64,000 nucleotides of DNA from Clostridia bacterium. Lineage in GTDB: Bacteria > Bacillota > Clostridia > Christensenellales > Aristaeellaceae. Of the stretch, positions 46,448 through 57,078 are shown one piece after another; positions within the stretch are counted from its first letter, which is position 1, and each line of letters begins with the position of its first letter. The notes under the pieces were generated by a model. The model was not told where the DNA came from. It searched no databases and saw only the letters and a list, made by a program, of their open reading frames with translations. Location: the NCBI GenBank assembly GCA_017532155.1, contig JAFXJP010000008.1, forward strand, positions 35,659-99,658, written 5' to 3'. A program made the translations under genes and the position numbers.

Positions 46448-46483
46448 TGAGGGACGGTTTTTTCAAACCGTCCCTCATTTTTT
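46448..46483 (+). terminator. Terminator of the DUF1836 gene
   Basis: A 13-bp stem (46448-46460 with 46465-46477) followed by TTTTTT; it abuts the stop of the convergent gene. Confidence 0.92.
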
Positions 46484-47423
46484 AATTCTGAATAAACCTC
46501 AGCACCTTTTCGGCCACTTTTTCACCGTTCACCACGCAATAAACCGATCTTTCACCGTCCAGCGTACCGCGAAGCTTAACGGGCAAATCTACGCTGCCAT
46601 TTGCTTCTACCGTCACATCGCCCCAGTTATACAAGCTGCCGTTTACGCTGTCGCATACGCGCACCGTCACCTTTTCCGCGCTGCTATTGCGCACATGCAT
46701 GACATAGCCCCAATGCTGACCCACGTCAATCTGCGCACGACGTACTGTATCGCCAAAATCGCGCACCCATGCGCCCGATCCATCCATCTCGCAGGCAGAA
46801 ATATCAACCGTAACGCCCTCTGGCGCGCCCGTCAGCGCAAAGGTGATCGTCCCCTCTGCCGCCGTTTCTCCATTGACTGTATATACCGTGTGACGCGCAG
46901 CCTCTGCCGGCGTAGCATAATAGCGCCAGAAGCTATAGCGTTTTCCGCTGTCAATCACAACCGTGCCGCGTTCAAACGCCGTGCCGTCCACCGTCTCCTG
47001 CACTTGCGCTTCGGCGGCTTTTTCCGCATAATTGGCAATGCTAAACTGCATACCCACCATGCTGCCTTCCGGCAAATTCTGCCAGCTGACCATGTCGCCC
47101 GTTGCATACAGCCAGTTGCCCTCTGCATCCAGCACACCGCCTGTCAGCTCATACACCAGCCCTGCCAAAGCCGCTTTTGCGGACAGCATTTCACCAATCT
47201 CGCCGCCCTCATTGATCACCGCAGGCGCAGGCGTAACAATGCTTCCGCCCTCGCTCTCAATATCAGAGGACTGTCTATTCGTTGTTGCTTCGCCAATCTC
47301 ACCAGCATCCAGTGCCGGCACAGGCGTCGGCGTTACCATTTCACCAATCTCACCTGCCAGCGCGCTGGTACAAAGCAACGCCGCTACACAAACCATGCAA
47401 ATCCATCTGCTCAGCTTCATCAT
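46482..47423 (-). CDS. Secreted protein with GEIGE repeats
   Basis: A 313-residue exported protein. After a signal peptide (ending ...LLCTSALA) come three short copies of GEIGE in the first 80 residues (GEIGEMVTPTPVP, DAGEIGEATT, EGGEIGEMLS), separated by Pro/Thr/Ser spacers. Three beta-rich segments follow that resemble immunoglobulin-like or CARDB-type domains (SMVGMQFSIANYAEKAAEAQVQE, HWGYVMHVRNSSAEKVTV). The start is one of three ATGs (47432, 47423, 47420); 47423 gives the best spacing to GAAAGG. It ends the CotH/glycosyltransferase operon. Confidence 0.7.
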   Translation of the reverse strand: MMKLSRWICMVCVAALLCTSALAGEIGEMVTPTPVPALDAGEIGEATTNRQSSDIESEGGSIVTPAPAVINEGGEIGEMLSAKAALAGLVYELTGGVLDAEGNWLYATGDMVSWQNLPEGSMVGMQFSIANYAEKAAEAQVQETVDGTAFERGTVVIDSGKRYSFWRYYATPAEAARHTVYTVNGETAAEGTITFALTGAPEGVTVDISACEMDGSGAWVRDFGDTVRRAQIDVGQHWGYVMHVRNSSAEKVTVRVCDSVNGSLYNWGDVTVEANGSVDLPVKLRGTLDGERSVYCVVNGEKVAEKVLRFIQN

Positions 47424-47442
47424 GCATGCCATCCTTTCAAGT

Positions 47443-48378
47443 TTACTTTTCCTTCCGCAGCATCATGGCAATTATATTGCGTCTGATTTCCGCATCCTGC
47501 TTATGATGCTGCGCCTGGGTATCGAGAATCAGCCCGCAAATCAGCGAACAGAATGCAAACAGCATCAGGAAGCAGCCAAAGAACAGCGTGGGGAAACGCG
47601 GCACCAGGCCCGTGGCAAAATACTCAATGAACACAGGCAGCAGCATGAAAAAGCCCACCAGGAAAGCCGCCGCCGCAATCAGCCCAAAGAACAAAAGCGG
47701 CTTGTAATAACGGAACAGGCGGAAGATCGTGCGCAGCACTTTGATGCCGTCCTGCACAGTATTCAGCTTGCTTTCGCTGCCCGCCGGACGATCACGATAC
47801 TGAATCGGCAATGATTTCAGGCACAGATTGTGATCCAGTGCATGAATGCTCATTTCCGTCTCAATTTCAAAGCCGCGCGACAGTACCGGGAAGGATTTGA
47901 CAAACTCCAGCGAAAAGGCGCGGTAGCCCGTCATAATATCCTTGATATCCCCTTTGAAAAACAGATTAACCAGCTTGCGCACAGTGGTATTGCCGGTATT
48001 ATGGAAGGGGCGCTTGTTCTCGGTAAAATAGGTAGCGCTCAGCCGGTCGCCCACCACCATGTCCGCGCCGCCCTCCAGCACCATCTTTACCATATCGCGC
48101 GCATGCTCTGCCGGATACGTATCATCGCCATCCGCCATCAGATAGCATTGGGCGTCAATATCGCGGAACATTGCGCGGATCACATTGCCCTTGCCCTGAC
48201 GGGGCTCATGGCGCACCACCGCGCCCGCCGCAGATGCAATCTCTGCCGTGCCGTCGGTGGAATTATTGTCATACACATACACCACCGCCTCGGGCAGCGC
48301 CGCACGGAAATCGCGCACCACCTTTTCAATGGTAGCAGCTTCATTGTAGCAGGGGAGCAGCACAGCGATCGTATCCAT
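47443..48378 (-). CDS. GT2 family glycosyltransferase with C-terminal membrane helices
   Basis: A 311-residue polyprenyl-phosphate glycosyltransferase-like protein. The GT-A core has VLLPCYNEAATIEKVV, VYDNNSTDGTAEIA, LMADGDDTYPAEH (DxD-type site) and IMTGYRAFSLEFV. Two hydrophobic helices lie near residues 230-290. This is the DPM1/GtrB/ArnC-like layout, which makes a lipid-linked sugar. It lies 17 bases after the GT-C-like membrane protein, its natural user of such a donor. Confidence 0.9.
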   Translation of the reverse strand: MDTIAVLLPCYNEAATIEKVVRDFRAALPEAVVYVYDNNSTDGTAEIASAAGAVVRHEPRQGKGNVIRAMFRDIDAQCYLMADGDDTYPAEHARDMVKMVLEGGADMVVGDRLSATYFTENKRPFHNTGNTTVRKLVNLFFKGDIKDIMTGYRAFSLEFVKSFPVLSRGFEIETEMSIHALDHNLCLKSLPIQYRDRPAGSESKLNTVQDGIKVLRTIFRLFRYYKPLLFFGLIAAAAFLVGFFMLLPVFIEYFATGLVPRFPTLFFGCFLMLFAFCSLICGLILDTQAQHHKQDAEIRRNIIAMMLRKEK

Positions 48379-48395
48379 AGCTTTTCCTTTCGTAA

Positions 48396-50549
48396 TTACG
48401 CAATCGTAAAGAGATTGAACAAATGCAGATATTTATCCGGCGAATACTCGCTAATAAAGCAGCGATAATTGCTGAATGTCATCGCCAGGCCCACCGCCAG
48501 CGTCAGCACACAGGCAATGGCCGCAATGCTCTGCAGCGCAGCGCGCTTATCTTCTATTTCAAGCGCCGTCACATCCAGCAGACACAATGCGCCAATCAGG
48601 CACAGCACCGGCAGAATATCGCACACATACCGCTGCGCCACACCCGCCACGATAAAGCCCGACACGGCGATCACCACCGTCATCATCACGCTGCATCCAT
48701 AGCAGGCAAGCTTGCCGCGATAGCGCTTGTTTTTCACCATCGGCAGCAGGAAAATGCCCAGCGTCAGCGGCATGGTGAAAGCGCCGGCATTGCATACGCC
48801 ATAGAAGAAATTGCCTGTGCGGTTGACAAAATGATCCGCCACCGTCAGATATGGGAATTGCGGCGTCATCTGCAAGCCATCCAGGAAGAAATAGTATATT
48901 GCCTGCCAGATACTGCGCAGATTGAAGGAATTATAGGCGATGCTCTCTGTTGTCAGCTGGTACTTCTGGCCAAATTCAAACGGCGAATCAAAGCGCGCCA
49001 GATTATACAGCATGATCACAGCGGCCCCAAGCGTCACCGGCAGCAGGAAGGAAACCGCATCCCGCACACGGTCAAAGAGCTTTTCCTTTTTGTTGAGCGC
49101 CACGCCAATAAACAGCGGCGCCACAAAGGCTGCGCCCGCCAGCGCGCCAGTTGCACGCGACCACACCAGCAGCACCGTGCTGACGCCGGAGAGGAAAAAC
49201 CACAGCGTCCTTCTGCCACGCGTCTTTTCCCGGCAGGCGCGCAGCGCCGCATAAAGCGTCAGGAAAAAGAACACCTGCATACTCTGAATGCTCAAATGAT
49301 ATCGGTCTGCGCAGCTTTGCAGCATCAGCACATTGCTGCCCAGCGTCAGCGCCGCACCGCACAGACACAGCATCACCAGCCCAGGCCTTTTAACAAAGCG
49401 CCGCGCCGCCTCCCACAGACACAGGAAAGCCGCCAGCACGCTCAGCAGCGCAAAGAACAGCGCCGCCGTGGTGTAGCTGGGCAAATAGCCCGTCACCGCG
49501 TAGAAGGGCGCATAAAATACCAGCACCGGCATCAGGCCAAAGTACGTATAATAATTGCCGTTATAGTAGGCATAGTCAAACATGTATTCAACACCCTGCG
49601 CGATGCGCTCAGTCGGATCATAGGGATCCTCCATAGCAGCCAGCGCCGCATCAGGGGCATGCGCCACCTGCGTCTGCACCCGCGCCAGAGAATCAAACAT
49701 CACCGCATGCGCAAACGTGCGGTAAGCATACGCCGTCTTTTCAAAAGGATACTCCAGTGCCCGGGTATACGGGAAGCGCTCCGTATCAAAAGGCGTGCAC
49801 AAATACTGCACCCAGATCACCAGCAGCACACAGGCCAGCGCCGTCAGCGCATAGGCCAGACGATGCGCACTGCTTTTACGATCCAGCACAACCAAATACC
49901 ACTTGTAATGCACAATCGCCGCAATCAGCAGCAGCGGCAAACAGAATACGCCATAGCGCAGCAGGCTGAACTGCCAGGCAATCGGCTCGTTAAGCGTTAC
50001 GCCTGTCAGCTTTGCTTCCGGATCTGCGGTGGTAAACACAATTTGCAGCCCCGTCATTTCGCCGTTGCTGTCCAGTATTGCCGCAGCGCTGTGATGCTCC
50101 TTGCTGCCCGGCGCCACCTTCACCGTGTTTGCCGGCGCATAGCCCACCGAATACGCAGCGTCCTGAATGTAGATTTCCACATTCATGATCACATTATCGC
50201 CCGTAAACGCCAGCAAAACCGTCTGCGTATCCACCGCCAGATTTTCAAAGGTAACCGTTGTGTGGTACACAGGCGCAATCTTCTGACCGGAAGGCGTTAC
50301 CGCAGACAAATAGGTTCTTTCCCCCGGCGCTTCCTCTACCACAGTCACAGCGTTTTCCACAGGAAGCGCAATAGGCGTCAGGTCTTTTGTGCTGATTGCA
50401 TTCAAATTGAACGCTACGCCCTCCAGCAAAAGGCACGAGAGCATGATGCAGCCCGCCTTGCGCAAAAAGCGCGGCATGCGCGGCAAAAAACCAGCCGCCA
50501 GACAAGCCGCCGAAATGACCAATATTACCATCGGAAGAAGAATGCTCAT
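48396..50549 (-). CDS. GT-C-like polytopic glycosyltransferase
   Basis: A 717-residue membrane protein. A first helix at about residues 1-22 is followed by an extracytoplasmic beta domain (about 60-195). About twelve helices then follow, with a loop resembling the mannosyltransferase family (YYNGNYYTYFGLMPVLVFYAPFYAVTG). PMT/ArnT-like enzymes use polyprenyl-phosphate sugars such as the one the downstream GT2 enzyme would make. The ATG at 50549 is preferred to the TTG at 50567. The acceptor is unknown: wall polymer or protein. Confidence 0.75.
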   Translation of the reverse strand: MSILLPMVILVISAACLAAGFLPRMPRFLRKAGCIMLSCLLLEGVAFNLNAISTKDLTPIALPVENAVTVVEEAPGERTYLSAVTPSGQKIAPVYHTTVTFENLAVDTQTVLLAFTGDNVIMNVEIYIQDAAYSVGYAPANTVKVAPGSKEHHSAAAILDSNGEMTGLQIVFTTADPEAKLTGVTLNEPIAWQFSLLRYGVFCLPLLLIAAIVHYKWYLVVLDRKSSAHRLAYALTALACVLLVIWVQYLCTPFDTERFPYTRALEYPFEKTAYAYRTFAHAVMFDSLARVQTQVAHAPDAALAAMEDPYDPTERIAQGVEYMFDYAYYNGNYYTYFGLMPVLVFYAPFYAVTGYLPSYTTAALFFALLSVLAAFLCLWEAARRFVKRPGLVMLCLCGAALTLGSNVLMLQSCADRYHLSIQSMQVFFFLTLYAALRACREKTRGRRTLWFFLSGVSTVLLVWSRATGALAGAAFVAPLFIGVALNKKEKLFDRVRDAVSFLLPVTLGAAVIMLYNLARFDSPFEFGQKYQLTTESIAYNSFNLRSIWQAIYYFFLDGLQMTPQFPYLTVADHFVNRTGNFFYGVCNAGAFTMPLTLGIFLLPMVKNKRYRGKLACYGCSVMMTVVIAVSGFIVAGVAQRYVCDILPVLCLIGALCLLDVTALEIEDKRAALQSIAAIACVLTLAVGLAMTFSNYRCFISEYSPDKYLHLFNLFTIA

Positions 50550-50621
50550 GCCTGCAAGCTCCCTCAATAATTCATCAGTTATCTTTTTTATTGTACACGA
50601 TTTGCCGCCAAAATGGAAGCA

Positions 50622-51860
50622 TTATTGCAAAAAGGCTGCGTCCAGCAAAGCAATTCGCTGCTGCATAAAACCGCGGATCAGCTCAATCTCGCCATATACA
50701 TTCAGCGCATGGGATTTTTGCGTGGTGATATCCGTGTACGTCCCAAAACGCTCTGCCTCGCGGGCCAGCGCGCCGCTCTCCGCCAGCAGATCTGCATACT
50801 CCGTAAAGCGCGCACACACCGCCTCCGGCAAAAAATGCGGCCGCAATTGCGCATAGCGCGCAGAAAGCAGCTGCTTAAACGCCTCGGTCTTGAGCAGCCT
50901 GTCAAACAGCGGCGAAGTATACCATGCATCTGCCGCCGAAAGCTCCGCATTATATATCCTGCCAAAGGCCGCATCCAGATCCCACGGCATGGGATACATC
51001 CTTTCGCCGTCCCAGGCCAGGAAAAGATTTTTCTGCAAATTGTCCGTTGCGCCAATCAGATTGACAAACAGATAGTAATCCGCAAAAGCAGTCAAATCCA
51101 GATACGCACCAATCTCCGCCGCAAAGGCTGCATCATCCGCCGTGCGCAGGAATGCATGCAGCGCCTGCATCGCCTGCCAGCCCGCATCTCCCGCCGGATA
51201 GATTTTTCCAATGTTGTACCAGCTCTCCCCCTCAGGCGCAGACGCTGCATGGCCGCTGAGAACATCTACCTGATCCACGCTCGCCGCCAGCACCCGATAC
51301 AGTGCGCCGTCCTTGGGAACCTTCGCCGTCTTGCGCTCCGGACGCTCTGCCAGCGTATAAACGCCCTTATAGTATTCGCCGAAATATACCTCGCACAGCG
51401 TGCCCTGCGCCGATGGTCCGCAGGTATCACGGAACAGATCCAGGCCCACCAGAATGCGCAGCCGCGAGGGATCGGAATAGCCGCCCAGCAACACATAATC
51501 ATCATCTTCCCGCAAGCCCAGCAATCCTGCTTTGCGCTGCGCGCCGTCCGGCGTTTTAAGGTGCAGCGTATAGTTGCGTTTGAGCGTAAAAGAAGCTGAA
51601 TATGTGCCGCGGTATTTGATCGTTATATCGCTTTCAAACACCTCCCCGGACGCATCCTTCACCAGGATTGTGCCGGGCTTTGTGGTCAGCATATTCAAAA
51701 GCGCCGCAGACAAACGCACCACCGGCAGAGAATGTGCCGCCGCGTCATCATTTTCCATTTCCGCCCGTGCAGCAGGCAGCAGGAAAATGATCCCTATGAC
51801 CAGTGCGCATATAAAAAGAAGAAATCTCGTCCTATTTTGTAAATTTTTTTGCTTTTTCAT
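50622..51860 (-). CDS. CotH-like kinase family protein, secreted
   Basis: A 412-residue protein with an N-terminal signal or anchor (FLLFICALVIGIIFLLPAARA). CotH family marks are TIKYRGTYSASFTLKRNYTLHLK, DYVLLGGYSDPSRLRILVGLDLF, EVYFGEYYKGVYTLAERPERK and, in the active-site half, DNLQKNLFLAWDGERMYPMPWDLDAAFG. CotH kinases phosphorylate spore coat proteins; many other members are extracytoplasmic with unknown targets. It is divergent from the Thr-type phosphotransferase operon and starts the operon with the GT-C-like and GT2 enzymes. Confidence 0.87.
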   Translation of the reverse strand: MKKQKNLQNRTRFLLFICALVIGIIFLLPAARAEMENDDAAAHSLPVVRLSAALLNMLTTKPGTILVKDASGEVFESDITIKYRGTYSASFTLKRNYTLHLKTPDGAQRKAGLLGLREDDDYVLLGGYSDPSRLRILVGLDLFRDTCGPSAQGTLCEVYFGEYYKGVYTLAERPERKTAKVPKDGALYRVLAASVDQVDVLSGHAASAPEGESWYNIGKIYPAGDAGWQAMQALHAFLRTADDAAFAAEIGAYLDLTAFADYYLFVNLIGATDNLQKNLFLAWDGERMYPMPWDLDAAFGRIYNAELSAADAWYTSPLFDRLLKTEAFKQLLSARYAQLRPHFLPEAVCARFTEYADLLAESGALAREAERFGTYTDITTQKSHALNVYGEIELIRGFMQQRIALLDAAFLQ

Positions 51861-51902: not shown

Positions 51903-51932
51903 TTGACGGCATCAAGCACCAGATGATATAAT
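51903..51932 (+). promoter_or_regulatory. Promoter of the surface-polymer operon
   Basis: TTGACG (51903-51908), 18-base spacer, TATAAT (51927-51932), 45 bases before ATG 51978. Confidence 0.8.
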
Positions 51933-51977
51933 AATCTGGGTTTTTGCCCAATTATCTAAACCGGAGGTTCTAAACAC

Positions 51978-53861
51978 ATGAAAGCATGCAAGCGCATCAT
52001 TTCCGTAGTGCTTGTTTTTTGTCTGATGCTCAGCCTGATGCCCTTCGCCTTTGCCGAAGTGCTGTACAAGGAAGGCGACAGCAGCGAAGAAGTAAAGAAA
52101 ATCAAGGATCGCATGTTCGACCTTGGTTATTATAACACGAAGTCCTCGCATAATCAATTTAACGCCACCATGACCGAGCGCGTCAAGCTGCTGCAGAAGA
52201 TGAATGATCTGGAGCAGACCGGCGTTATTGATGAAGAGCTCTATGCGTTGATTTTCTCCGACGCCTGCCGCGATAAGAACGGTCGCATTCAGGGCGAACT
52301 GCGCCAGGGCGATAACAACGACCGCGTGCTTGCCCTCAAAAAGCGCATGCAGGAGCTGCTTTATTTCAATTACGGCGTTTCCATGAGTTCTTCCTATAAC
52401 ACCACCATGACCGAGCGCGTTAAGCAGCTGCAGAAGGTCAACGGTCTGGAAGAAACGGGCATCGTTACCAAAGAATTGTACGATTTCATCATGAGCGATA
52501 ACTGCCTTAACAAAAACGGCAAGCTGTCGGGCATGATGGTAGAAGGCGATTCCAGCAGCAAGATCCGTGAACTGAAGCTGCGCATGCAGGAGCTGCTTTA
52601 TTTTGACCCCGACGCCAGCATGGGCAACGCCTTCAACGAAACCATGACCCAGCGCGTTAAGCTCCTGCAGGAGACCAATGGCTTTGAGCCCACCGGCGTT
52701 GTCTCTAAAGAGCTCTATAATTTCATCATGAGCGATGACTGCCTCAAGTGCGGCGACTGGCATGATCCCTACTATCAGGTAGAAGCGCGCGAAAACTATG
52801 CGCTGGATGGCGAAAAGCTTTTCTCCCTGTCTGAAAGCGGCAACGTCGTCGTCTTCGTGATCGACTATTTTGCCAACAACTATATGAAATCCCTCCTGCG
52901 CGCCTATCCCAATATCATGGACGAATTCAAGGATTTCACCTTCTACACCAACTGCGACCCGCGCTATATCGGCACCTATCCCTCCATCACGCACATGCTG
53001 ACCGGCGCAGAGTTTGATCCCTCCCTGATGGTGGCCGAATGGTTCCAGCAGGCCTGGTCCAGTGATAAGGCAAACTATCTGTACGATACTATTCATTCTC
53101 TGGGATATGAATTCCGCTATTACTATTACAGCGCCATTTCCAACGGCATGAAGGCCGAGGCCGTCGGCAAGGTGGATAACCTGATTGATCTGACGGTGGA
53201 AGGCGCCAAATCCCCCGAACCCATCTACTCCTACGCCAACTTCATGGAGCAGCTGCAAAAGCGCGGCCTTACCAAGGATCAGACGGATAAAAAGTACATC
53301 CAGATGATCCACCTGCGCGGCGCGCATGCCCCTTATACCGTGGACGCCAACGGCAATGAAAAGGAAGACGCTTCCCGCGATGAAAATATTGCCGGCTATC
53401 TCAAGATGATCAAAACCTACATGGAAGAAATGAAGCGCCTGGGCCTGTATGACGACGCTACCATCATCGTCACTGCCGACCACGGCGATAAGGACGCCAA
53501 CATGCAGGTTGTCTACTTCATCAAGGAAGCGGGCGAAACCCACGAAGAAATGGCCGAAAACGCCGCGCCCATCTCTCATGACGACTTCCCCGGCACCCTG
53601 CTGCATGTCATCGGCGGCGATTACAGCCAGTACGGCACCTCCATCTACGACTGGAGCGAAGATGACAAGCGTGAGCGCACCTGCAGCGTTGTTGGCCGCG
53701 ACGCCAATGTCTACCCCCTGGGCTCCAGCTACAGCGACAAGGGCATCGGCTCGCACAACCTCTGGAAAACCTATACCTACACCGGCGATGGTGATGATCT
53801 GGTAAAGATCCAGAAGCGCAACAAATATTCCCACGTACAGCTCAAGCAGTCCTTCAATTAA
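51978..53861 (+). CDS. Secreted Thr-type phosphotransferase/hydrolase with three peptidoglycan-binding-like repeats
   Basis: A 627-residue exported protein with a signal peptide (about residues 1-26, ...LMPFAFA). Three repeats of about 75 residues follow (pattern L..RM..L.YF......N.TMT.RVK.LQK.N.LE.TG....ELY.FI.S), resembling PG_binding_1 units. Then comes an AP-superfamily domain with VVVFVIDYF, Thr333 in YIGTYPSITHMLTG and IIVTADHGDKDAN. It is paralogous to 41025-42752 but has no membrane part. The Thr at the nucleophile site suggests phosphotransfer or phosphodiester chemistry. GGAGG lies before ATG 51978. It is the first gene of the polymer operon. Confidence 0.82.
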   Translation: MKACKRIISVVLVFCLMLSLMPFAFAEVLYKEGDSSEEVKKIKDRMFDLGYYNTKSSHNQFNATMTERVKLLQKMNDLEQTGVIDEELYALIFSDACRDKNGRIQGELRQGDNNDRVLALKKRMQELLYFNYGVSMSSSYNTTMTERVKQLQKVNGLEETGIVTKELYDFIMSDNCLNKNGKLSGMMVEGDSSSKIRELKLRMQELLYFDPDASMGNAFNETMTQRVKLLQETNGFEPTGVVSKELYNFIMSDDCLKCGDWHDPYYQVEARENYALDGEKLFSLSESGNVVVFVIDYFANNYMKSLLRAYPNIMDEFKDFTFYTNCDPRYIGTYPSITHMLTGAEFDPSLMVAEWFQQAWSSDKANYLYDTIHSLGYEFRYYYYSAISNGMKAEAVGKVDNLIDLTVEGAKSPEPIYSYANFMEQLQKRGLTKDQTDKKYIQMIHLRGAHAPYTVDANGNEKEDASRDENIAGYLKMIKTYMEEMKRLGLYDDATIIVTADHGDKDANMQVVYFIKEAGETHEEMAENAAPISHDDFPGTLLHVIGGDYSQYGTSIYDWSEDDKRERTCSVVGRDANVYPLGSSYSDKGIGSHNLWKTYTYTGDGDDLVKIQKRNKYSHVQLKQSFN

Positions 53862-53942
53862 CACTGTCTCACCATATAATTCATTGCGCGCGGAAGCTAC
53901 TCTCCTTCCGCGCGCATCATAGCGAAAGGAAAGATCTCTTTC

Positions 53943-56024
53943 ATGAATAGCGTGATCTCTCTTCTGGGCGTACCGCTTGGCTATGTGATGGGCGCATGCT
54001 TTGGTTTTCTCCAGAATTACGGCCTGTCCATCCTGCTCTTTACGCTGATCACCAAGGTCATTTTGCTGCCCATTGGCATCTGGGTGCACAAAAACGCCAT
54101 CAAAATGGTGCGCATGCAGCCGGATATCAATTTCATCAAGGCACGCTTTTTCGGCGACGCCGATCAGATTGCCGAAGAACAGAGCAAGCTGTACAAAAAG
54201 GAAAAGTATAATCCCCTGCTCTCGCTCATTCCCCTGGCCATCCAGATTGTGCTTTTGATGGGGCTGGTGCAGGTCATTTACCATCCCTTCACGCATCTTT
54301 TGCGCCTTCCCGAAGAGACGATCAACACGCTCAACGCACTTACTGTGCAATTGACACAGGTGGATCCCACCGTTTCCACGCTGCAGATCCACACCGTCAA
54401 CGCTATTCATTCCGGCCTGTATACCGCAGAGTTTGCCGCGCTGAATCTGCCCGAGGCCGTCTCTGCCATTGAAAACCTGAACGTTCATTTCCTGGGTATT
54501 GACCTGGGCCTCATGCCCATCAATGCCGGCGGCATTCTGTGGCTGATGCCCCTGCTGGCCGGCCTGTCCTCCTGGCTTTTGTGCGAGATTCAGAACCGCA
54601 AAAACGTTCTGCAGCACGAGCAGGGCAAAATGAACCAGTATTCCACCATGATCCTCTCCGTGGGCCTGAGCCTGTATCTGGGCGTATTCGTCCCCGCCGG
54701 CGTGGTGATCTACTGGATTGCCAGCAATCTTTTGGCCATCGTACAACTGCTCATCCTCAACCGCGTGATTGACCCGCGCAAGTTCGTCGATTACGAACGG
54801 CTGGAAGAGAGCAAAAAGGCCCTCGAAGGTCTCAAGAGCGTGGGCGGCCAGCGCACGCGTGAAGAAAAAGCCCGCGAAAAGGCGGATTATAAGCGCTTCT
54901 TCTCCATTTCCAACAAGCATCTGGTATTCTACAGCGAGGGAAGCGGCTTCTATAAATACTTTGAAAAGCTGATCGACGAGCTGCTGCGCCGCTCCAATGT
55001 GGTTATTCATTACGTCACCAGCGATCCCAACGACCAGATTTTCAAAATTGCAAAGGATAATGAGCGCATCCAGCCCTATTATATCGGCGAACGCAAGCTC
55101 ATCACCCTCTTTATGAAAATGGACGCTGACGTTGTCGTTATGACAATGAGCGATCTGAATAATTACCACTACAAGCGCAGCTATGTCCGCAAGGATGTCC
55201 GCTATATTTACCTTTTCCACTATCCCCTGTCCACGCACATGGTGCTGGGCACCGGCGCGCTCAACCACTATGACGAAGTCCTGTGCGTAGGCGAATTCCA
55301 GTTTGAAGAGATCCGCCAGGCAGAAAAGCTGTACGGCACCAGGGAAAAGAAGCTCATCGCCTGCGGCTACGGCCAGCTGGAAAACCTTCACGATGCCTAT
55401 CAGCAGATGGACAAAACGCCCCGCACCCGCCCGCAGATTCTCATCGCCCCCTCCTGGCAGCAGGATAATATACTTGATTCCTGCATCGATGATATGTTAC
55501 AATCTCTGTTGGGCAAGGGCTACGATGTCATCGTCCGTCCTCATCCCGAATACAAAAAGCGCTACGGCGCCAAGCTGGATGCACTGATCAACCGCTGGCA
55601 GGATTACAAGGGCGATGATCTGCGCTTCGAAACAGATTTCTCCGGCAACGAGACGATCTACGGCTCCGATCTGGTCATTACCGACTGGTCCGGCACGGCG
55701 TATGAATTCTCCTTCATCACGCTCAAGCCCTGTGTTTTCATCGATACGCCGCCCAAGATCAACAATCCTGATTACGACAAAATCACCGTTGCGCCGCTGG
55801 AATTCACCCTGCGCGATCGCATCGGCGTACGCGTCGCCATGGATGAAGTAAAATCCATGCACGAAAAAACAGCCGCCGTGCTTCAGGATAATCAGCGCTA
55901 TGCCGAGGAAATTCTCAGCATCCGCAACACCTACATCGCCAACTTTGGCTCCTTCGGCAAGGCTGCCTATCGCGTCGTAATGGACGCTATCAAAGAGCAG
56001 GCTGCTGCCCGCAAGGATGATTAA
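53943..56024 (+). CDS. YidC-type insertase fused to a CDP-glycerol glycerophosphotransferase-like domain
   Basis: A 693-residue two-part protein. Residues 1 to about 285 are YidC/Oxa1-like. NYGLSILLFTLITKVILLPI carries Lys38 where Bacillus SpoIIIJ has its groove Arg. A coiled loop with KYNPLLSLIPLAIQIVLLMG follows, then later helices with FVPAGVVIYWIASNLLAIVQLLI. After a charged linker, residues about 320-690 resemble TagB/TagF-type transferases, with VIVRPHPEYKKRY and SDLVITDWSGTAYEFSFITLKPCVFID. The reading frame is continuous with no sign of frameshift. It lies second in the operon, before a small membrane protein and a nucleotidyltransferase. Confidence 0.85.
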   Translation: MNSVISLLGVPLGYVMGACFGFLQNYGLSILLFTLITKVILLPIGIWVHKNAIKMVRMQPDINFIKARFFGDADQIAEEQSKLYKKEKYNPLLSLIPLAIQIVLLMGLVQVIYHPFTHLLRLPEETINTLNALTVQLTQVDPTVSTLQIHTVNAIHSGLYTAEFAALNLPEAVSAIENLNVHFLGIDLGLMPINAGGILWLMPLLAGLSSWLLCEIQNRKNVLQHEQGKMNQYSTMILSVGLSLYLGVFVPAGVVIYWIASNLLAIVQLLILNRVIDPRKFVDYERLEESKKALEGLKSVGGQRTREEKAREKADYKRFFSISNKHLVFYSEGSGFYKYFEKLIDELLRRSNVVIHYVTSDPNDQIFKIAKDNERIQPYYIGERKLITLFMKMDADVVVMTMSDLNNYHYKRSYVRKDVRYIYLFHYPLSTHMVLGTGALNHYDEVLCVGEFQFEEIRQAEKLYGTREKKLIACGYGQLENLHDAYQQMDKTPRTRPQILIAPSWQQDNILDSCIDDMLQSLLGKGYDVIVRPHPEYKKRYGAKLDALINRWQDYKGDDLRFETDFSGNETIYGSDLVITDWSGTAYEFSFITLKPCVFIDTPPKINNPDYDKITVAPLEFTLRDRIGVRVAMDEVKSMHEKTAAVLQDNQRYAEEILSIRNTYIANFGSFGKAAYRVVMDAIKEQAAARKDD

Positions 56025-56076: not shown

Positions 56077-56343
56077 ATGAAAAAGTCCGAACGCATCTTC
56101 CTGTTGCTCATGTTCATGCTCTCGCTGAACATCATCTTCTGCTCCACCGCCTTCGCTTATATCGATCCCTCCACGACCACCTTCATCGTGCAGGCCGTCG
56201 CCGGCGTTGCTGTGGCTGTGGGCGCTGTATTCACCATCTGGTGGCGCAAAGCCAAGAAGAAGGTCCAGAAGACCCTGGGTATCGATGAAAATGCCAACAA
56301 AAAGCAGGAAGCCGACGTCATTGAAGACGAAGACGAGGATTAA
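56077..56343 (+). CDS. Small membrane protein with AYIDPST motif
   Basis: An 88-residue protein with a signal or first helix (IFLLLMFMLSLNIIFCSTAFA), then AYIDPSTTTFIVQAVAG leading into a second helix (VAVAVGAVFTIWW), a basic stretch (RKAKKKVQK) and an acidic tail (EDEDED). Small proteins with YIDP[SG]T followed by one helix often sit beside surface-polysaccharide phosphotransferases in Gram-positives (from recall). It is probably an accessory subunit of the enzyme encoded upstream. AAAGGA precedes ATG 56077. Confidence 0.8.
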   Translation: MKKSERIFLLLMFMLSLNIIFCSTAFAYIDPSTTTFIVQAVAGVAVAVGAVFTIWWRKAKKKVQKTLGIDENANKKQEADVIEDEDED

Positions 56344-56349
56344 TCATTT

Positions 56350-57078
56350 ATGAAAGCACTTATTCTTAATTCGGGTGTTGGCCGCCGCATGGGCGTGCTG
56401 ACCAGTGAACATCCCAAGTGCATGACGGATATTTCCGCACATGACACCATCCTCTCCCGCCAGCTCAGGCTCCTGAGCGAGGCGGGTGTTGAAGAAGTGA
56501 TCATGACCACCGGTCTGTTCAACGACATTCTGGTCGATTATTGCCACTCGCTTCAGCTGCCGCTGCGCTATACCTTCGTCTACAACCCCGATTACGCCAG
56601 CACCAACTATATCCAGTCCATCTACTGCGCGCGCGAATTGCTTCACAACGAAGATATTCTGCTGCTGCACGGTGATCTGGTATTTGAAAAGGAAGCGCTG
56701 AAGCAAGCGCTCTCCCATCCGGACAGTTGCGTGACAGTCTCTTCCACCCTGCCCTTGCCGCTCAAGGATTTCAAAGCAGTGATCGAGGGCGGCTGTGTGC
56801 GCAAGGTTGGCATCGAGTTTTTCGAGCATGCCATGGCCTGCCAGCCGCTGTACAAGCTCCTGGCCCGCGACTGGAACAAATGGCTTGACAGCATCATTCG
56901 CTTCTGCGAAGACGGCGTCAACACCTGTTATGCCGAAAACGCGCTCAACGAAATCTCTGCCGATATCTGCATCCGTCCTCTGGACGTCAAGGATATGCTG
57001 TGCAATGAGATTGACACACCCGAGGATCTGGCCTTCATGTCCATGCGTGTGCGCGAAGTGGAACGCCTCGGCAAATAA
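56350..57078 (+). CDS. LicC-like nucleotidyltransferase
   Basis: A 242-residue NTP-transferase with the Rossmann start MKALILNSGVGRRMG (GxGxRxx nucleotide loop), PKCM in place of the usual PK.L/PKP, and LLLHGDLVFE, the metal-binding Asp region. The size and single-domain form match LicC-type cytidylyltransferases and other sugar- or polyol-phosphate nucleotidyltransferases. As the last gene of the operon it could provide the CDP-linked donor for the transferase domain upstream. Whether the base is CTP and the acceptor glycerol-P, ribitol-P, choline-P or a sugar is not readable. Confidence 0.82.
   Translation: MKALILNSGVGRRMGVLTSEHPKCMTDISAHDTILSRQLRLLSEAGVEEVIMTTGLFNDILVDYCHSLQLPLRYTFVYNPDYASTNYIQSIYCARELLHNEDILLLHGDLVFEKEALKQALSHPDSCVTVSSTLPLPLKDFKAVIEGGCVRKVGIEFFEHAMACQPLYKLLARDWNKWLDSIIRFCEDGVNTCYAENALNEISADICIRPLDVKDMLCNEIDTPEDLAFMSMRVREVERLGK

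Follow-up and report, generated by a model that had tools for sequence, protein, structure and literature searches.

A YidC/Oxa1-type domain joined to a PF04464-type transferase recurs in Clostridia, usually beside the same partners, and probably serves the cell surface

The window analysed in this study is a stretch of 64,000 nucleotides from a Clostridia bacterium (GenBank assembly GCA_017532155.1, contig JAFXJP010000008.1, positions 35,659 to 99,658). It carries a gene that joins a YidC/Oxa1-like domain to a PF04464-type transferase, together with the neighbouring genes given below.

51978..53861, plus strand: upstream partner of 627 aa, with a signal-like N-terminal segment, three peptidoglycan-binding domains (PF01471, three stretches) and a sulfatase-superfamily domain (PF00884)
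53943..56024, plus strand: YidC/Oxa1–PF04464 transferase fusion gene, an ATG-start open reading frame of 693 aa (Pfam and NCBIfam)
53943..54782, plus strand: YidC-like part of the fusion, residues 1-280 (Pfam, hydropathy, alignment and PDB profile hits)
54783..54917, plus strand: junction, residues 281-325 (alignments; dN/dS against the relative L070)
54918..56021, plus strand: transferase part, residues 326-693 (alignments A1 and A2; match to TarL, 8va1)
56077..56343, plus strand: downstream partner, the small 'AYIDPS' membrane protein of 88 aa (cluster and hydropathy)
56350..57078, plus strand: LicC/PntC-like nucleotidyltransferase of 242 aa, likely headgroup-activating (PF12804 and PF00483)

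Residues 26-274 of the fusion matched the PF02096 profile over its full length (1-163 of 163; 110 bits, cut-off 35), and the YidC part also passed the cut-off of TIGR03592 in NCBIfam (107.5 vs 84.3 bits). In a PDB profile search, this first part matched YidC structures at 1e-18 to 1e-13 (best 1.3e-18). Its hydrophobic segments, counted like all those reported here with a Kyte-Doolittle window and not with a trained predictor, are residues 4-22, 30-48, 91-109, 188-206, 237-255, and 258-276. Meanwhile, residues 459-600 matched PF04464 (32.5 bits, cut-off 22.1) over a part of the profile (148-292 of 367). The sole plausible PDB match of the second part was the ribitol-phosphate polymerase TarL (8va1), found at 0.026 with the whole chain and at 3e-5 with the transferase half, and spanning the His-Pro and Asp-x-Ser motifs. 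The first-pass annotation of this DNA had described one continuous frame of 693 residues, an insertase joined to a CDP-glycerol-phosphotransferase-like domain. The position, the continuity and the length of the frame are exactly as it stated, and its naming of the domains is borne out by the two Pfam matches, both over cut-off. In addition, an antisense frame of 1159 residues (51912-55391, minus strand) overlaps the greater part of the sulfatase and fusion genes; it is one among several long shadow frames in the window and was not taken as a gene.

The two parts are inherited together as one conserved frame. D315, R318, and F319 in the junction are invariant in 31 family proteins (alignment A1), and D315 is invariant in 80. 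In the transferase part, H426, R532-P533-H534-P535, and D581-W582-S583 are invariant in both A1 and A2. It should be noted that the 31 rows of A1 leave out L060, L069, L031, L040, and L041, and that L060, L069, and L031 are the 3 of 38 loci without a fusion call, though their genomes gave long matches; A2 leaves out L135 (1420 aa). Compared with L070, an 89% identical relative, dN and dS were 0.097 and 0.89 for residues 1-280, 0.034 and 0.95 for the junction, and 0.066 and 0.80 for residues 326-693. The junction is under purifying selection, and no break was found at residues 285-320.

To estimate the distribution of the fusion, genomes at several taxonomic levels were searched. A full-length match was found in 34 of the 300 genomes of the family, in addition to a contig-end piece in G249. 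Among 398 genomes of the phylum (including that of the window, G000), the search at E <= 1e-60 added one full-length fusion, in G696, and a single transferase that is unfused, in G674; in the class of G674, 2 of 29 genomes gave a match, both from one genus and one of them a contig-end piece. Furthermore, a pattern scan of 84,980 species genomes found that at least 563 stretches encode a relative, and the best 80 were kept. The titles of these best 80 of at least 563 name Clostridia, Lachnospiraceae, Oscillospiraceae, Ruminococcus, Christensenellaceae, Solobacterium, and others, and many of the 80 loci come from rumen and gut samples. The fusion frame is present in all 81 sequences (the 80 kept and the window), with a length of 626-742 aa except for one of 1420 aa. 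A plasmid search with the transferase part gave no match. Among the literature matches listed, no description of such a fusion was found in the title or the start of the abstract, and InterPro or UniProt may already list the architecture.

A frame of this kind could be an assembly or frameshift artefact, or the housekeeping insertase with a tail, the more so as G000 is a draft genome of 62 contigs and 82.5% complete. However, the same join occurs in 80 of 80 kept loci, the selection on the junction is purifying, and the genome has a second YidC. This protein of 354 aa, with Arg in the groove, is encoded on contig C56, where its gene stands after what we take, by eye, to be rnpA and before a presumed jag. 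The first-pass annotation had asked for precisely such a separate yidC near rnpA. Furthermore, a separate YidC match was found in 33 of the 34 fusion genomes of the family (G000 included), the exception being G023, which is 74% complete. In a quick tree built from 120 YidC domains, each of three groups, namely 81 fusions, 31 housekeeping copies, and eight copies of a YidC-sulfatase type described below, falls on one side of a branch, with support of 95, 97, and 100, respectively; the fusion gene has neither the rnpA-yidC-jag context nor a place on the housekeeping (SpoIIIJ type) branch. We therefore reject the artefact and the housekeeping explanation, which the separate yidC, the recurrent join, the selection, and the tree leave extremely improbable. 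The view of a dedicated second YidC is upheld by the C56 gene and the separate branch, and the join itself is real. The tree neither rules out nor proves a single origin of the join.

The groove of the YidC fold was then compared among the three groups. At the position of Lys38, 79 of the 81 aligned fusions have Lys and 2 have Arg; among the 31 housekeeping YidCs, 23 have Arg and 8 have Lys; and all eight aligned YidC-sulfatase copies have Asn (L188 and L189 are outside these eight). The Lys38 pointed out in the first-pass annotation is thus present, but its reading as a special replacement of Arg was overstated, and we rejected Lys38 as a distinguishing feature since 8 of 31 housekeeping YidCs have Lys there. 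The residues F33, T34, P43, P60, P97, L105, P203, S243, Y257, W258, N262, Q268, and N273 are common to fusions and housekeeping YidCs. Meanwhile, N51, G71, Q101, Q217, Q224, and Q227 hardly vary among the fusions, and housekeeping YidCs have other or variable residues at these positions. Judged from these residues, the pattern fits a groove that may be retained but specialised. The passages of PMC8920935 that deal with the groove describe its basic residue as strictly conserved in YidC, and assign to its charge a role in hydration and not in charge pairing with the substrate.

The neighbourhood of the fusion is also recurrent. Together with the AYIDPS protein and an enzyme of the sulfatase superfamily, whose topology is usually LtaS-like, it makes up a cassette. 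When the neighbours were grouped into single-linkage BLAST clusters, 67 of 81 loci had a member of the AYIDPS cluster no more than five genes from the fusion, and 57 of 81 had one of the sulfatase cluster. The gene caller was a simple codon-usage script, which missed two small genes (in L071 and L079, recovered by a motif search) and maybe others; once missed genes and fused copies are counted, the AYIDPS protein is present in 75 of 81 loci. The six loci left comprise L076 and L133, where the sequence stops less than 150 bases past the downstream end of the fusion, and L085, L093, L095, and L145, in which no copy was found. Of the 78 loci in which at least 600 bases follow the fusion, 58 have the AYIDPS gene immediately downstream. 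The sulfatase gene immediately precedes the fusion, on its strand, in 40 of the 74 loci with 2 kb or more upstream, and both partners adjoin the fusion in 33 of the 61 loci with 2.5 kb on both sides. The AYIDPS protein of the window has two hydrophobic segments, of which the first is signal-like and is missing in many relatives.

The sulfatase cluster was checked with Pfam for six members, five of which were over cut-off and one (L090) below. Four or five hydrophobic segments were counted in 48 of the 65 members, and at most one in the enzymes of the window and its seven nearest loci (L070-L076). Searches of the PDB by phmmer with two sulfatase partners gave no meaningful match to a solved LtaS. 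The join is common to many relatives and usually comes with the same partners. Thus, it seems to be one component of an as yet undescribed machine of the cell surface, and the envelope setting proposed in the first-pass annotation is supported. Other genes recur beside the fusion as well. In the window, a CotH-like kinase gene, a gene for a 723-residue membrane protein, and a further gene lie divergently upstream (46482-51860, minus strand), and their clusters are found in 7, 7, and 4 loci, window included. A gene of the PGA_cap family (L099:8537-9895, minus strand) belongs to a cluster that lies divergently upstream of the fusion in 8 loci.

In addition, the parts of the cassette are fused to each other. 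In L135 (1223-5485), the YidC, PF04464, and sulfatase domains lie in one frame of 1420 residues, with the AYIDPS gene directly upstream. The AYIDPS protein is fused ahead of the sulfatase enzyme in seven proteins of six loci (L113, L116 twice, L117, L121, L127, and L147), five found by motif search and two (L113 and one of L116) by eye. A second type, YidC joined to a sulfatase-type part, was found in ten loci (L181-L190) of six genomes of the same family. Eight of these read as frames of 867-989 residues, L187 as two frames, and L189 is cut by a contig end. Among the three loci searched with Pfam, L182 and L183 matched both families and L190 matched YidC only. Two examples are as follows.

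L182:7035-9731: YidC-sulfatase gene
L190:1949-4552: YidC-sulfatase gene

A stand-alone PF04464 gene directly adjoins the YidC-sulfatase gene in L181, L182, and L190, and a motif search found no AYIDPS protein in the YidC-sulfatase loci. Taken together, several combinations link the AYIDPS protein with the YidC domain, the transferase, and the sulfatase enzyme, which is the strongest evidence that they work in one machine.

What the YidC fold does in such a machine may be considered next. The first-pass annotation had offered, as possible roles, a groove that presents a lipid, or a YidC part serving as anchor or flippase. Another explanation is that the YidC domain is a dedicated insertase, which inserts or chaperones the AYIDPS protein or the LtaS-like partner, so that the attached transferase is built into the complex in place. 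Short membrane proteins of this size class are known YidC substrates, the AYIDPS protein is the most constant neighbour of the fusion, and the groove residues are kept. However, a covalent one-to-one coupling to an enzyme would be unusual for an insertion catalyst, nearly all fusion genomes already have a separate YidC, and the related YidC-sulfatase proteins have Asn in the groove and loci free of the AYIDPS motif. We consider the insertase explanation quite unlikely. With moderate confidence, we suggest that the YidC domain gives the transferase its seat in the membrane.

The donor of the transferase may be sought among the activating enzymes beside the fusion. The best PDB matches of the nucleotidyltransferase of the window were LicC (1jyk, 3.7e-7) and PntC (6pd1, 7.6e-5). 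In L078, a PEP-mutase triple enzyme stands beside the fusion, and its first domain has 60% identity with the protein of the window. Enzymes of the LicC/PntC class, of types that activate small headgroups with CTP, were found in 39 of 81 loci, and the examined stretch of the other 42 has no activating enzyme. This count replaces a third BLAST cluster (41 loci), which was a mix of nucleotidyltransferases and enzymes linked via fused proteins. By type, LicC-like enzymes were found in 21, PEP mutases in 11, choline-kinase-like proteins in 3, and CobD-like proteins in 4 of the 81 loci. The PEP mutases tested were over the TIGR02320 cut-off (3 of 3), and a phosphonopyruvate decarboxylase was over cut-off in L085. 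Fe-alcohol dehydrogenases in 9 loci could reduce phosphonoacetaldehyde, and that of L081 scored 159.5 bits against the phosphonate model, under the cut-off of 423.7. The choline-kinase-like domains were over the Pfam cut-off in the two tested, and their best NCBIfam models were other kinases, below cut-off. The CobD-like decarboxylase domains of the 4 loci scored 184-190 bits, below the cut-off of 290.6, and 7 loci have a transporter similar to the 2-aminoethylphosphonate type, which stayed under the NCBIfam cut-offs in the cases tested. Triple enzymes made up of an NTP-transferase, a CTP-transferase-like domain, and a PEP mutase stand beside the fusion in the following loci.

L077:2840-4849: triple enzyme (by Pfam or NCBIfam)
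L078:2548-4563: triple enzyme (by Pfam or NCBIfam)
L081:5022-7034: triple enzyme (by BLAST)
L086:11850-13916: triple enzyme (by Pfam or NCBIfam)

In three loci (L093:13721-15526, L113:5849-7648, and L128:6476-8305), an NTP-transferase is fused to a CobD-like domain, and such proteins possibly convert a phospho-amino acid into CDP-ethanolamine or a similar group. An odd pairing was seen in L136 (12716-13621) and similar proteins, where a LicC-like nucleotidyltransferase has an N-terminal MarR-type winged helix. We read the common trait of these neighbours as the activation of a small phospho- or phosphono-alcohol or amine with CTP.

CDP-glycerol, the donor suggested by the first annotation of the transferase, fared less well. 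Of the 34 fusion genomes, 4 passed the cut-off of TIGR01518, the glycerol-3-phosphate cytidylyltransferase model, which had no match in G000; matches at E <= 0.001 were found in 26 of the 34, many of them inside PEP-mutase enzymes. From these counts and the 39 loci with activating enzymes, a CDP- or CMP-activated phospho- or phosphono-headgroup is a more likely donor than CDP-glycerol, and we infer this donor class fairly strongly. The same data bear on a further explanation, in which the fusion is a teichoic-acid-type polymerase or primase using CDP-glycerol or CDP-ribitol and the YidC fold is a mere membrane anchor. PF04464 is indeed the family of CDP-glycerol glycerophosphotransferases, TarL was the only plausible solved relative, and most members of the sulfatase cluster have an LtaS-like topology. 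However, the cytidylyltransferase is over cut-off in so few fusion genomes, the neighbours are of choline-, ethanolamine-, or phosphonate-activating types, and a mere anchor needs neither the groove Lys or Arg of all 81 fusions nor Y257, W258, and N262 as in housekeeping YidC. This explanation is therefore unlikely.

A link to phosphonates was seen in the genomes of the family. PEP mutase was found in 23 of 34 genomes with the fusion, compared with 72 of 266 without it (Fisher p 5.9e-6, a value for related draft genomes that ignores kinship). G000, at 82.5% completeness, gave no PEP mutase, and had matches below cut-off to phosphonopyruvate decarboxylase (one) and choline kinase (two). In addition, 40 fusion-free stretches around PEP mutase genes were searched by tblastn (E <= 1e-8, 35% of the query), with a motif search for the small protein; none of the 40 contained a transferase homologue, a sulfatase-enzyme homologue, or the small-protein motif. 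These stretches are 20 loci from 20 of the 72 PEP-mutase genomes without the fusion and 20 loci of 18 fusion genomes. G023, G090, G111, G165, and G269, with PEP mutase within about 3 kb of the fusion, were left out; in G163, some 14 kb separate the PEP mutase from a fusion, which falls just beyond the stretch, and several of the 40 end at contig ends. Thus, other users share the phosphonate supply. An exclusive role in phosphonate metabolism is weakened by these stretches and by the kinship-blind association, and different lineages probably use different headgroups.

The nearest unfused transferase found (G674, locus L195) is 39% identical over 361 residues. It belongs to an apparent 2-aminoethylphosphonate operon (L195:3694-12724) and is flanked by a 2-aminoethylphosphonate transaminase (449 bits, over the cut-off of 361) on one side and by two genes for sulfatase-family proteins on the other; PEP mutase, phosphonopyruvate decarboxylase, and a nucleotidyltransferase lie upstream of the transaminase. 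G674 gave one YidC match only, on a contig other than that of the transferase. Thus, a dedicated YidC is not needed for the chemistry.

Taken together, we propose as the best explanation, and think it reasonably probable, that the fusion is a membrane-bound headgroup transferase of the PF04464 fold, seated by its YidC domain and forming one machine with the AYIDPS protein and the sulfatase-superfamily enzyme. A small phospho- or phosphono-headgroup would be activated as a CDP- or CMP-donor by the LicC/PntC-like enzyme, encoded two genes downstream in the window, and the transferase would pass it to an acceptor located at the membrane's inner face. The YidC/Oxa1 domain, as a specialised copy apart from the housekeeping one, would seat the enzyme and may give it access to an acceptor embedded in the membrane. 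The external sulfatase-superfamily enzyme, usually LtaS-like, would then move the headgroup on to a surface polymer. In this way, the transferase probably decorates the cell surface with small charged groups. That the acceptor is a lipid, and that it is passed across the bilayer, is weakly suggested. The sections of PMC10491306 on lipid scrambling report this activity in vitro for E. coli YidC, Oxa1, and Get1, and the fold may likewise present a membrane acceptor or handle a lipid here. A bolder version, possible but doubtful, is that the YidC fold was recruited from protein insertion to lipid handling: the fusion would make an inner-leaflet lipid with a CMP-derived choline-, ethanolamine-, or phosphonate-type headgroup and pass it via the YidC groove, and the LtaS-like enzyme outside would spend it on surface polymers.

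In PMC6697681, the tailoring steps after C-P bond formation are called enigmatic; the CTP activation is characterised there, and activated 2-aminoethylphosphonate is presumably captured by carbohydrate or lipid nucleophiles. For Clostridia, the fusion family nominates a concrete candidate transferase for this capture, and its loci add an outside partner and candidate activating enzymes. Thus, the question becomes one of an enzyme assay. If the lipid-handling version is true, the family would provide the transfer that is missing once CMP-phosphonate has formed in Clostridia. The fusion would also offer a natural example of an enzyme permanently attached to an insertase fold, and a handle on whether the groove serves lipids as well as proteins, as the scrambling by E. 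coli YidC reported in that section of PMC10491306 suggests. Meanwhile, the CDP-glycerol label should yield to CDP-/CMP-headgroup transferase with the specificity left unspecified, and the unit of study should be the cassette and not the lone fusion.

The proposed machine shares features with four known systems. Like the YidC/Oxa1/Alb3 insertases, the fusion matches the profile over its whole length and has the basic groove residue and the Pro, Tyr-Trp, and Asn positions, but it differs by its separate branch, the lack of rnpA/jag context, and the C-terminal enzyme. The likeness to TagB, TagF, and TarL (PF04464) lies in the Pfam match and the His-Pro and Asp-x-Ser region; however, only a part of the profile is matched here, and the neighbours point to other activated groups. 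To our knowledge, no fused insertase is known in that family. Most members of the partner cluster resemble LtaS-type lipoteichoic acid synthases (five helices and then an extracellular sulfatase domain), but the partner in the window has a single N-terminal segment, and peptidoglycan-binding domains in place of the helices. Finally, the LicC/PntC-like enzymes and the PEP-mutase triple enzymes beside the fusion recall the Pnt/Lic tailoring systems (PntC, LicC, and LicD). The architecture of PEP mutase with PF12804 and PF01467 was already counted in 42 proteins in PMC6697681, and the neighbourhoods described there hold LicD-like phosphotransferases or glycosyltransferases; here, the YidC-PF04464 protein would fill that place.
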